64,000 nucleotides of DNA from Atriophallophorus winterbourni (Eukaryota > Platyhelminthes > Trematoda > Plagiorchiida > Microphallidae). This document shows positions 28,824 to 51,564 of the stretch, piece by piece. Made by a program: the position numbers and the translations under genes. Within the stretch, counting starts at the first letter, position 1. The number at the start of each line of letters is the position of its first letter. The stretch is from NCBI GenBank assembly GCA_013407085.1, contig JACCGJ010001774.1:51592-115591 (forward strand). Direction: 5' to 3'. The notes below the pieces were generated by a model. It saw only the letters and a program-made list of their open reading frames with translations, was not told where the DNA came from and made no database searches.

Positions 28824-29051
28824 TCAATTAACAACATACAAATTTCCATTTGTCGCTGCTGGTACGCTAGTCGCATTAAGATGAACTAGCAAAATTTGCA
28901 TCTCTGCGCGCTCTCGGCGAGCATTCCGGTATCGCAGAACCTGCTTGATGATCACCGAGATAACAAGCAGGCCTAGCACAAGCCAAGCGATTCGGGTCCC
29001 AATTCGGATAGGCGGATTCGGAGCCTCTCGTCCAACCTCCAAAATGGAACT
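28824..29051 (-). CDS. Giant Ig-like membrane protein, exon 4 (transmembrane and tail)
   Basis: The last exon of the minus-strand gene. The acceptor TTTCTAACAG precedes 29051 and the stop TAA is at 28826-28824. It encodes residues 6015-6089: a short juxtamembrane part (SSILEVGREAPNPPIRIG), a clear transmembrane helix (IAWLVLGLLVISVIIKQVL, residues about 6034-6052), a basic stop-transfer sequence (RYRNARRERAEM) and a tail of about 37 residues ending LYVVN. The reading phase (0) matches exon 3 exactly, which supports the join. The topology is therefore type I: an enormous extracellular part and a short cytoplasmic tail with no enzymatic domain. Confidence 0.8.
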   Translation of the reverse strand, partial: SSILEVGREAPNPPIRIGTRIAWLVLGLLVISVIIKQVLRYRNARRERAEMQILLVHLNATSVPAATNGNLYVVN

Positions 29052-29763
29052 CTGTTAGAAACAAAACCAATTACAAGGGATCAAGTCAGCTATACGAGAC
29101 ATTGAAAGCTGTATATTCCCAGGACTGAAAATAGCTTTGAGTGCACTAGTTAAGAATGCAAGGCAAAGGCTCGCTGAGTAACTTGTCTTTATTGTATGGT
29201 CGTCTTTTTATGAACAGAAATTAAGCAGTTTTGGGTATTGTCTCTCTTCTGAAACAGAGACTTCGTCAGGCGATAGCCTGCACTGAGAACAAGCGTAAGT
29301 AGCACAATGCTTGACCTAATCAGTAAGCCAAGATGCATACGCTCACGTAGTTCCGATTTTCCTTAGATTAACGTGAATACCAACTGGGCCAGGCCAAAAC
29401 TGCCAATCGATACTGGCTTCACCCACGTGACTTTTCACCCCGTAGGGTTATGATAGGCTGCTTGAAGTGCTGGATTTACCCTTAGGCCATGCGAATTGTG
29501 TACCACATTCGTCCTTACATCAGTTATGTGCCCGTGTTAATAGTAACCAACTTCTCGATTGATCACATATCCGCTTCAACTCAACCTATTCAATGGTAGC
29601 ACGTAACATATTAAAATTATTTAAAACTCCAGATGTATGCTAGCCCATAGCGCGCTAACGAATAGTCGCTCGTATGTCTTTTTAAATATCGTTCCATGTT
29701 AGTTATACCACTGGTTCCTTTCAACCACAAGTTTGTTTTTATCCACAACACTTAATGACTTAC
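29052..29763 (-). other. Intron 3 of the giant gene
   Basis: 712 bp with donor AAA|GTAAGT and acceptor TTTCTAACAG. Positions 29360-29520 resemble, weakly, the 3' region of the Penelope-like family (GATAGGCTGCTTGAAGTGCTGG against ...ATAGGCTGTTTAGCGGTAAGG in other copies). Confidence 0.7.
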
Positions 29764-47400: not shown

Positions 47401-50400
47401 AGCTACAATATCCAACGGTGCTTGAAGTGCCACCTTAGTCAAAACGCTCTTCCGAATTTCTTCCGGTGCATTATCGTATATAAGTTGACATGTTAGCCTA
47501 ATCGGACCTGTATCTGTTACAGTAGACGATAATTGAATAAAGTATGTTTTGGCGTGTCGCCGTTCGCCACTGTTTGCGTCGTACAATCTATCCTCTAATT
47601 CACTTATTGGTAATAACGAGGTTTGATTCGCTGTGATGTTGAGCATCTCCGAAGCTAACCTTATTGCCCCAGTAAGTTTCGATTCGAGCACAATTGTTTG
47701 TTCACATGTTACTGTGAAGTTGTAGTTCGGGTTGACGTAAATTTGTCTCACTCCATCGGCACCGAGTCGCTCATAATGCTCATTCAGCGTTACTTCATCA
47801 CGTGGAATTTGTTTGAGATGGATGGACAGATGAGCTCGATCTGGCCGAACGACAACCAATCTTGGCTTGATCACCGGTTGATAACTGCACGTAGAGCATG
47901 TCCGGTTTAAACCGCATGTATAAAAGCCTGTTCGTGATGGTGCGACACTATTTAACACGAGGCAAACGCCATATGCTGGAACCGAAATTGCGAAATTCCA
48001 GCTTTCATCCAATTCAACGAAAGATTCCATTCTACTGGATTGGTAAAAGCAACTTAGATTTGATTTGTATTGCCAAGACAGGCTGCATAATCGAACAGTT
48101 TGTCCTGCTTCAACAAAAACATCCCACATGATTTCAAGTTTAACCCTGTGAAGGTTCCCGTGTCGACCATGTGCTTGCCTATTTGCCATGGTCTGAGCAT
48201 GCGTGATCAAAGTTTTATTCACTGACTCTTGGCTCTTTGGTTCCGCGCCCGGTGAATAACTTGCCAGAACAAGTAGGGTAGTATTAATATCAAAAATACA
48301 AGTGTAGTGAAACCTGTAGAGATTATATGCTCGCTTTTGAATGTAAATAAAATGTGTTGGCAAGCTGTGATACGTATCGTTGGTAGTTATTGCCGTAGTT
48401 TCATTTAGTAAGCATTCAAATGTTTCATTGTTCGTCTCCATCACCCATACCTGAGTCCTACCAGGTGGATCACCGAGAAAATAAACTACTTCCAAATCAT
48501 ATACACCCTCAATTAATCTCACAGCATTTCCAGGTGTCGGCTGCCTTAAAGCCTCAGTCAGAACATCATCACTAGAATTTATGTATTCATATAGTAGGAT
48601 GGGTTTCGTAACTTGGTCGATGGTGAAATTAATGAAATTTTCTAGGTATAAAACTACTGGTGGGAACAAGCTCGTTTTCGGATCGACTGTGATGTTCGTG
48701 AATTCAATTTTGCAGCTGCAACTAGACAGTACGATATCATGATGCTCAAGGCGATGTTTCAGTGAATAAAATCTGTAACGATGGTTTGAGTTCACATCTG
48801 GTGAAATATTCTCCATTCCCAATGATTCGATCTGCGTCGTTCCGGAATAGCAATTAAGTGTGATTTGCACAGAGGACTGAAATCCGTTGTACAAAAAACT
48901 AAAGCACTCTAGCGTCAAATTTTCATGCCATTCGTACAAGGAGTTCTCGTTTTTGTGGTCAATAGATTGTTCACTGTCGTTGTAATAAACTTTGAGTAAC
49001 AAATTTTCTGTATGTGGTAGTACTGTAATACGACGAAAATCAACATCCGGTGAATCATTGTTAGAAGCTCGTGAGCAGCAGTATATACCAGAATCTTCCT
49101 CCTTCACTGAGCCTTTCGTCAAATAGATCACACTGTAGTCCGGATATTCGCGAACTGTGAATAGGGAGCTCACTGGAATTTTCGAAGCCGATTCATTCAC
49201 GCTATACATGCATTTAATGGGCACTCCGGCACTAGATTTAGAGATCCAACTAATCCCGAGTGTTTGGTTGACTTTCAGAACTGCTCTCCAAAGGACCTGG
49301 ATTTTAGTCATGTGAACAGGCAAGTTTGATGGGAATAAATCCTGATTGGTGTTGGCCTTTTTTCTGTTGACGATTTTGTTGAGTAAAACGACCAATTGGT
49401 TTGAAACATGTTTCCGGTCACCCGGTGTCACCGTAGAGTCGATTGGAATCAGAACTAATAGGCGACATTGACTCGTAAGAAAACAAGTAAATTTGTAGTG
49501 ACGAACAATAAACTCCATTGTTTCGTTTACTTTGAATCTGGTGTAATCCGACCAGTTGTCTGGACATGGTAACCATCCCAAGTTATTGTTTCCGTCTATA
49601 TTGTACATCATTCCTATCATTGTCCAATCATTTTTGTGCTGAAAATGAGCAATAAATGAACCCTTGATTATGGTTCCCTCATGGAATGTAACAGTTTGTA
49701 GTTGTTTTATCGAGGTAAAATGCGCGACGTTCAAATGGTACACTGATTTATTTAATGCCAACGTCATTTCATCATGATTAGTGATAATTGATGTTTGAAC
49801 GATTCCCGCTTTTTGCTCTAGAACGGAATGCAATAACACTGATTTATTAATGTACCTCCGCTCCTCTGGAACTTGTTCAGAATATTTGAGCAGTTCAGAG
49901 GAAGCTTTGTATTTGTATGAGCAAGTAGCGCGATATCCCGAATAGTTTGGTATTCGTGATCGTTCAAGCGTAAAGCTGTTCAAAACGAAAATGAAGTCGT
50001 CTGTTTGTTTGACATAATTTGATTTCGATTTCAATTCAAAACCTCCAATACCATCATCCACATAAAAGTGTTGGCCGTCGTGATTGTCCAAACCTCTGGA
50101 CAATTTGTATATGCAATTAACATAGACGCGATTCTGGGTTAGATTTATGTGAAATGTCGTATTTATGTGTTTGTAGAACTTGGAGTTTTCTGAAATTTCA
50201 CTCACATCTATTGGATATGTAGTTACATAATTAATTATGTCTTGATGGTCTGGCAAAACGATTATGTAATAATCATGAATGAAATGATAATTTGGTTGAA
50301 CATTTTCTGGATTGTGACAGCTATACATTCCACTATCAGTTGTTTGTAAATCTCGTATTTCATAATAAGGTTTTCCAGCGTCCGAATACATTCTGGTTGA

Positions 50401-51564
50401 CTTTTTGTATTTTTCTTCAACTGTGTATCTTTTTTCACAATATCGCTTACTTTTTGAATAGATTTCGCTTTGTTCTAACCAAATGCGTCTTGATTGACCT
50501 CGGATGAATACGGCTTCATGTGAGACCTTGAATCCAATGATACGCATGTCGGGTAGTTTGTTCAAATCGGGCCATTTGAAAGTGAAAGTTTGATCCGCTT
50601 TCTCAACCCATGCATGAAGTAACTTTTCAATGTGATCCTTTGCTTCAATTTGTTTCGGCCGTATTAAAAACAACGCCGCTTTTAGATCGCGCCCGACAAT
50701 TATGCTATGATTCCAACGTAAGATATTCTTTCGGTAATTCGGATGCCACTGGATGATTGGAGAGAAATATTCCTCCACGTTTTGCGTTGATTCCCAGGGT
50801 GTTTCAGCAGGTTGTGTGCTTAACATACGACAAGCGCCTGGTTCGTTCTCGCAATACACAGTCCAAAATGTGTAGCAGTAATTAGCTGGAGCAAATGCCA
50901 ACATGCTTAATTCTGCCAGAGAATTCTCTTCAATAATCAATTCTGGAACGAGATCCTGATACGAGATTTGATGTAATTTATTTCGTTTTCCAAAGATCAT
51001 CCCAAGCTCTCGTGGTTTAGAGGGCAGTGCCACCTGGGCTATTTCTGGTCGAATAATATCCTCTCTTCTGCCGGCATGCAAGGATAAATAAGGATAAGTG
51101 GCCTCGTTACATTGTAGCAAAATTACAATCATTTGGTCAGCAAATTGAATGGAACCAGTAATCCGTTTCAAAACGAACAAATATTCAATCTCGTTGATTT
51201 CAAATTTCGAAGTTGAATAATACTCAAGACATTCAGTCCCCAACCCAAATTTACTACTTCCCTCATCTTCTTTGCAGCAGGATGAGTTGAGTTGTTTTTT
51301 TCCGCAGGTGAATAATAATTTCCCGTTGAAAATATAGTAACCCATTACCATTTCTATTTGTATCCATTTTTTAACTTTATAGTGTAGTTCATTTTGTGTG
51401 TCACTTTTGACATAGGTGATGTTCATCTTGTTGTAGTCATCAAATACAAATTGACCTTTCAATTTCGGTAAAATTGATGAATATATAGTCTCATGTTCAT
51501 GCAAACTATTCGCAATAAAAACACTGCAACAGGTTATTAGGAACATTTCGATCCAATGTGCCAT
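38416..51564 (-). CDS. Giant Ig-like membrane protein, exon 1 (signal peptide and nine modules)
   Basis: A 13,149-bp exon of 4,383 codons without a stop, which by itself shows strong selection. It starts at ATG 51564-51562 with a probable signal peptide (MAHWIEMFLITCCSVFIANS). From about residue 50 to 3780 there are nine tandem modules of 385-430 residues. In each, a first domain has a G-x-P-x-G-x-x-x-x-W block and an F-x-C-x-L strand. A second, Ig-like domain has an N-x-x-W strand, C-F-Y, then D-S-G-x-Y-x-C (at residues about 415, 826, 1213, 1641, 2057, 2479, 2904, 3326 and 3725). A third carries Y-I-H-C and a late Cys. Residues 3780-4383 are unique (GGWGGPAKP; then TVFLFPVDNFLQIRLS, faintly like a Rossmann or VWA fold). 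Many N-x-S/T sites suggest heavy glycosylation. Likely a cell-surface recognition or adhesion protein; no named family fits. Confidence 0.85.
40300..51000 (-). repeat. Ninefold module array inside exon 1 (about 1.25 kb per unit)
   Basis: The D-x-G-x-Y motif recurs at nucleotides about 50320, 49085, 47925, 46640, 45395, 44125, 42850, 41585 and 40390, a spacing of 1.16-1.29 kb. The units are strongly diverged at DNA level, so the duplications are old. Modules 3-8 carry an extra C-x2-C just after the Ig motif (CSTC, CDFC, CTSC, CPSC, CITC, CSTC); modules 1, 2 and 9 do not. Confidence 0.8.

Follow-up and report, generated by a model that had tools for sequence, protein, structure and literature searches.

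We analyzed a 64,000-nucleotide stretch of the genome of the trematode Atriophallophorus winterbourni (assembly GCA_013407085.1, contig JACCGJ010001774.1, positions 51,592 to 115,591 of the forward strand), hereafter the window, in whose own coordinates positions are given unless another contig is named. On its minus strand lies a four-exon gene, the window gene, whose product is probably a fluke-restricted, single-pass adhesion or coat protein of ~690 kDa belonging to the immunoglobulin superfamily, encoded by an intact member of a small and old digenean family. Judged from its sequence, the giant gene is real and its predicted architecture is conserved, while profile matches and a modeled fold place it in the immunoglobulin superfamily. 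Its distinguishing traits are a composite unit of an immunoglobulin (Ig) domain, a domain X and a V-type Ig domain, a nine-fold array of this unit within one exon, and a restriction, so far, to flukes.

A four-exon gene with a 13-kb first exon

An open reading frame scan of the window returned a minus-strand frame of 4,396 codons (38389-51579), whose chance of being stop-free is ~10^-120 at the base composition of a 4.4-kb flank; each of the remaining five frames across exon 1 contains 213-299 stops. This bears out the first-pass annotation of the window, which had described a first exon of 4,383 codons without a stop. The same annotation had proposed four phase-0 exons with GT-AG borders on the minus strand: their number, phase and borders hold, and so do junctions 1 (38416/38335) and 3 (29764/29051), but the end of exon 2, set at a donor at 36595/6, was misplaced. 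Specifically, four paralogues share an exon-2 donor at the equivalent of window position 36796 (GTAAGT in three, GTGAGT in the gene on contig C13011), and paralogue frames hit a stop 4-6 codons beyond it. The window gene carries GTAAGT at 36796 too, in phase 0, and its frame stays open for 67 further codons to the donor proposed earlier. With the conserved donor, intron 2 measures 3,880 bp instead of 3,679 bp, the product has 6,022 instead of 6,089 residues, and the junction between exons 2 and 3 reads SLLTVN/EFDTDDYYCSAR, resembling the end of a V-type Ig domain. A weak V-set match spans this junction in Pfam (14.2 bits, E 0.053, under the 26-bit cut-off), and the junction proposed earlier gives no Ig match.

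Joined through GT-AG introns, all of phase 0, the four exons form a single frame with one terminal stop, and the corrected product, predicted at ~690 kDa before glycans, contains 86 N-glycosylation sequons. The position of intron 1 is supported by gene models of other flukes: the Dicrocoelium dendriticum model runs from exon-1 residue 4383 to exon-2 residue 1 without a gap, the Clonorchis sinensis model is nearly gapless, and the Opisthorchis viverrini match resumes at exon-2 residue 16, all three models being gene predictions and not complementary DNAs. The parts of the gene are as follows.

38416..51564, minus strand: exon 1 (13,149 bp, 4,383 codons), with the start codon, a signal-like N-terminus, nine C2-X-V units and a conserved central region
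38336..38415, minus strand: intron 1 (80 bp, phase 0), where the D. dendriticum (P0001) and C. sinensis (P0002) gene models join
36797..38335, minus strand: exon 2, corrected (513 codons)
32917..36796, minus strand: intron 2, corrected (3,880 bp, phase 0), which appears to split a V-type Ig domain
29764..32916, minus strand: exon 3 (1,051 codons), which encodes the remainder of the split V domain, a charged linker poor in Cys and a membrane-proximal Ig-like part
29052..29763, minus strand: intron 3 (712 bp, phase 0)
28824..29051, minus strand: exon 4 (75 codons and the stop), with the transmembrane helix and cytoplasmic tail; equivalents occur on contigs C3494 and C13011
28791..28796, minus strand: AATAAA, candidate polyadenylation signal, 27 nt past the stop

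Nine composite units with a predicted V-type fold

Exon 1 encodes nine units of ~420 residues, each composed of an Ig-like domain, an unnamed alpha/beta domain X and a V-type Ig domain; we located the units by motif spacing and set their boundaries by eye. The V-set profile PF07686 scored 62.3 bits in exon 1 against a cut-off of 26, and 59.6 and 70.6 bits in the D. dendriticum and O. viverrini relatives. At E ≤ 1, Pfam matches were restricted to Ig families in exon 1, to one chance-level match in exon 2, and to the weak V-set in exon 3. The loop resembling complementarity-determining region 3 (CDR3) carries an extra CxxC, chiefly in units 3-8; units 1 and 9 lack it in every copy. The product was divided as follows.

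51505..51564, minus strand: N-terminal hydrophobic stretch by hydropathy, presumed signal peptide (residues 1-20; residue 1 aligns with residue 3 of C. sinensis P0002)
50251..51492, minus strand: unit 1, Ig(C2-like)-X-Ig(V) (residues 25-438, boundaries by eye)
40315..50250, minus strand: units 2-9 (residues 439-3750, about 390-430 residues apiece)
42775..44052, minus strand: unit 7, the unit modeled with AlphaFold2
38416..39987, minus strand: conserved stretch following the units (residues 3860-4383), with 38-42% identity to the Dicrocoelium, Clonorchis and Opisthorchis proteins
30805..32166 (approximate), minus strand: Cys-poor hydrophilic linker (residues about 5147-5600), from composition, boundaries by eye
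28935..28991, minus strand: transmembrane helix IAWLVLGLLVISVIIKQVL (residues 5968-5986), the strongest hydrophobic helix, followed by a 36-residue tail

The first-pass annotation had proposed a structure prediction of one module, and unit 7 folds well in AlphaFold2, with a predicted local distance difference test score (pLDDT) of 84.8. The model contains a two-sheet Ig fold with a Cys pair, and its V domain matches antibody variable domains in a structure search. For the whole unit, the first Foldseek matches were IgLON5 and NEGR1, and the matches listed are Ig structures. Such IgLON-type adhesion molecules share Ig folds with unit 7 but are short, three-Ig proteins with a glycosylphosphatidylinositol anchor, whereas the window gene has the non-Ig domain X between two Ig domains, nine units, and a helix as predicted anchor.

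A small gene family in the same genome

Rather than standing alone, the window gene belongs to a family with at least five members in its genome, the others being located on contigs C3494, C9774, C13011 and C743. Counts from this search of 537 Mb are lower bounds, the queries being exon 3, the C-terminal 1,384 residues encoded by exon 1 and the most diverged paralogue, the last of which revealed no further gene. Homologous places for exon 3 exist on five other contigs, one of which is a second copy: C3617:3316-5718 holds a duplicate, 99.0% identical over 3.8 kb, of the C13011 gene's 3' part. These two copies differ at 25 of 1,500 bases in the intron part, and by nine synonymous and five non-synonymous changes (a stop among the five) over 2,332 bp in exon 3.

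Exon 1 is one intact frame of similar length in three paralogues and broken in the fourth, with open frames of 4,396 codons for the window gene and 4,435, 4,466 and 4,431 codons for the other three. Identity in exon 1 is 20-28% among these four intact genes and reaches 30.5% against the partial C743 gene. In each of the six pairings of intact exons, codon position 2 differs least often and position 3 most often (for the window gene vs C3494, 55.6% at position 1, 46.4% at position 2 and 68.4% at position 3), as expected for protein-coding sequence under constraint. Genes of the liver fluke Opisthorchis felineus have on average 9 exons and a coding sequence of about 1.7 kb (PMC6530080), and given these averages, 13-kb coding exons kept open in four paralogues at such low identity are unusual.

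Relatives in other flukes

We searched for related proteins with one query protein, requiring shared 5-residue words, across lengths of about 761-7,670 aa over three runs. The only matches were three fluke proteins, from D. dendriticum, C. sinensis and O. viverrini. No shorter relative (761-2,422 aa) was found at E ≤ 0.1 among 3,887 candidates, and no schistosome, Fasciola or tapeworm relative appeared, although a word-based search can miss them. A keyword search of the literature at the level of abstracts likewise retrieved no publication on a giant fluke Ig family. Of the separate, possibly flatworm-specific family suggested at first pass, the absence of a described name and the restriction to a lineage are upheld; its specificity to flatworms is consistent with a one-query word search but unproven by it.

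All three proteins are colinear with exon 1 and extend to exon-2 residue 510 of the corrected 513. The unnamed D. dendriticum protein (P0001, 4,989 aa) is 28% identical over 99% of exon 1 and crosses the border between exons 1 and 2 at the residue where the window gene does. The C. sinensis protein CSKR_106235 (P0002, 5,009 aa), annotated as "hypothetical protein" or "Ig-like domain-containing protein", shows 26% identity in exon 1 and 38-39% in the central region and carries nine units in the same order; unlike the window gene, its public model ends with exon 2 and has no membrane anchor, and it is nearer to the C9774 gene. The O. viverrini protein (P0003, 4,978 aa), with the ill-fitting database name "phage tail component protein, partial", is also colinear with nine units in order. 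It is 83.7% identical to the C. sinensis copy, while these two copies are just 21-34% identical to the other fluke copies. In an exon-1 tree of 8 rows, the window gene and C3494 split from the other six with a support of 100; support elsewhere is 63-83, with long branches, and we do not claim a one-to-one orthologue of the window gene.

A probably old unit array without hypervariable CDR3-like loops

Units of the same number are closer to each other across proteins (24.3% mean identity, 208 pairs, excluding the C. sinensis/O. viverrini pair) than units of different number (15.6%, 1,994 pairs). The alignment used to delimit the unit copies for these comparisons presupposes colinearity, and BLAST of the window units against whole proteins served as a second test. 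There, all 45 best matches in P0001, P0002, P0003, C3494 and C9774 fell at the colinear place, i.e., the nine window units are colinear in five of the six proteins tested, the broken C743 gene being left out. Given this colinearity and the closeness of same-numbered units, the array of nine units most likely predates the divergence of the paralogues and of the fluke families.

Nine V-type domains per chain with an antibody-variable-like fold, in a family of at least five paralogues, could suggest a diversified recognition receptor whose V loops vary between individuals and tell self from non-self. In an antibody-like system, variability would be concentrated in the CDR3-like loop. Between C. 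sinensis and O. viverrini, the one species pair compared, CDR3-like loops differ at 16 of 140 sites (11%) vs a unit average of about 16%, and this lack of hypervariability counts against antibody-like diversification. The stretch after the first V-domain Cys differs at 57 of 235 sites (24%) in the same pair, leaving some surface variation possible. The synonymous and non-synonymous differences between the C13011 and C3617 copies give no sign of diversifying selection in exon 3, an exon that does not include the nine units. Overall, we consider such a receptor improbable.

Central region, membrane anchor and tail

No Pfam match was obtained for the central region (residues 3860-4383), and AlphaFold2 gave no usable model of it (pLDDT 33). 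The region includes a glycine-rich, near-invariant segment, LPADGGGWGGP..PF.DMP (residues 3959-3977, window 39634-39690), in four of four aligned proteins. A von Willebrand A (VWA)-like domain at residues ~4010-4290, suggested by eye from the order of helices and strands, is conceivable but not claimed: there was no Pfam match at E ≤ 10, the AlphaFold2 model was the unusable one above, and the best PDB profile match (E 0.61) was an unrelated enzyme.

Hydropathy shows a hydrophobic N-terminal stretch and a single strong transmembrane helix, in agreement with the first-pass description of a signal peptide, one helix and a tail, the last of which we count at 36 rather than 37 residues. The earlier view of an Ig-like giant protein, probably anchored at the surface, is supported. 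The transmembrane exon was found in three of the five genes (window, C3494 and C13011). The tail of the window gene holds one pair of tyrosines (RYRN and NLYVVN), neither of which fits the immunoreceptor tyrosine-based inhibition motif, [ILVS]xYxx[ILV]. A short tail without such a motif points to anchoring rather than direct signaling.

Comparison with known giant Ig proteins

The length of the Ig array and the large size of the chain would also fit a protein that diverged from one of the known giant Ig families. Hemicentin is a giant extracellular Ig-repeat protein with VWA (N-terminal), EGF, thrombospondin and nidogen-like G2F domains; titin, twitchin and obscurin are cytoplasmic, with fn3 domains and a kinase domain; and Dscam-like receptors have an Ig array followed by fn3 domains, with alternatively spliced Ig exons. 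Pfam at E ≤ 1 returned no fn3, EGF, thrombospondin, VWA, nidogen-like or kinase domain in exons 1-3, nor in P0001 and P0003, in line with the first-pass annotation, which had set the gene apart from hemicentin and titin. The window gene resembles hemicentin as a giant Ig-repeat protein but differs in having no EGF or nidogen-like match by sequence profiles, a predicted membrane anchor, and a 13-kb exon 1. The VWA domain, at the N-terminus of hemicentin, had no match in exons 1-3, nor at E ≤ 10 in the central region, for which there is no usable model, and a search of the fluke's own genome for the hemicentin G2F domain returned 0 matches but was uninformative, as its controls failed too. Unlike the titin group, the window gene has an N-terminal hydrophobic stretch and a transmembrane helix; unlike Dscam-like receptors, it places nine units within one exon. 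Every unit contains the non-Ig domain X, and the chain is predicted to be membrane-anchored. Overall, membership in one of these families appears very unlikely.

Points against the favored interpretation and genomic surroundings

Several observations weigh against an intact, membrane-anchored adhesion or coat protein of conserved architecture. None of the three public models, that of D. dendriticum included, has exons 3 and 4, so that support for the complete joined chain comes from the window gene and its paralogues, and searches of 7.5 kb of C9774 and 6.2 kb of C743 yielded no transmembrane exon. Only five of the nine units are colinear in C13011, where units 1 and 3 are unmatched and the best matches of units 5 and 9 lie at other places, and the whole-unit Foldseek match has a template modeling score (TM-score) of just 0.23. 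Exon 1 of the C743 gene (C743:20986-34306, minus strand) is spread over three overlapping frames of 434, 1,584 and 2,488 codons with two frame breaks, reflecting either a decaying gene or assembly errors, and the in-frame stop in exon 3 of the C3617 copy could mark a null allele or stem from a sequencing error. Finally, we infer adhesion from the architecture only.

One broken exon 1 among five genes, a second copy with a stop, and transposon remains around the gene could also indicate a relic, i.e., a gene out of use with its open frame left over. However, the window copy is stop-free, with consensus splice sites and a candidate polyadenylation signal, and shows protein-level constraint against its relatives across >4,000 codons; we regard a relic as very unlikely. 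As for these surroundings, first described as dead transposons, four of the ten flanking frames scanned score above cut-off for transposase, reverse transcriptase or integrase families and one just under it for an endonuclease family, and the remaining five match nothing. ARAGORN further predicted a tRNA-Arg (tcg) at 19333-19407 (minus strand), possibly a real transfer RNA or a tRNA-derived repeat.

4151-4822, 5496-5978, 15049-15894, 58816-59976 and 61894-63093: transposon remains (Tc5-type, DDE_Tnp_1_7 transposase, endonuclease-like, reverse transcriptase and integrase fragments)

Proposed role

Under the interpretation that we favor, an adhesion or coat protein of flukes, the product would be exported and anchored by one helix near its C-terminus, with a short cytoplasmic tail. 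From the N-terminus, the ectodomain would comprise nine Ig(C2-like)-X-Ig(V) units, the central region, the V domain split by intron 2, the hydrophilic linker, and the membrane-proximal Ig-like part. Such a long adhesive or coat-forming ectodomain could be displayed at the cell or body surface, where repeated V faces far from the membrane may make many weak contacts, either with like molecules on a neighboring surface or with a fixed partner. The tail would merely anchor the chain or bind a co-receptor, and the paralogues may divide partners or tissues among themselves.

Specifically host-facing functions deserve separate consideration, as the protein could form a tegument glycoprotein layer or a decoy that meets host fluids or immune molecules. 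The very large size, the many sequons, the predicted type I topology and the matches only in flukes are all compatible with such a coat, and 83.7% identity between C. sinensis and O. viverrini vs 21-34% to other flukes suggests a loosely constrained sequence. However, no report of a tegument location appeared among abstracts retrieved by keyword, and the unit array looks fixed and the paralogues few, a pattern unlike that known from variable surface families. We consider a host-facing coat unlikely. A more far-reaching idea, which we put forward as a speculation with rather limited chances, is a giant receptor class of the flukes' own, built from an Ig-X-V unit whose number is fixed at nine, encoded nearly entirely by single 13-kb exons, with an X domain that we guess to be a new fold. 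Several ancient paralogues would each bind a different partner and together constitute a surface recognition code (worm-worm, gamete or tissue) without counterpart elsewhere.

Should the favored model be right, some flukes possess several membrane proteins of ~6,000 residues that are absent from the literature found by keyword in abstracts. The three public entries would be missed in lists of surface proteins or antigens because they lack a membrane anchor and one bears a phage name. The unit architecture would enable clear tests of where these proteins are located and what their V domains bind.

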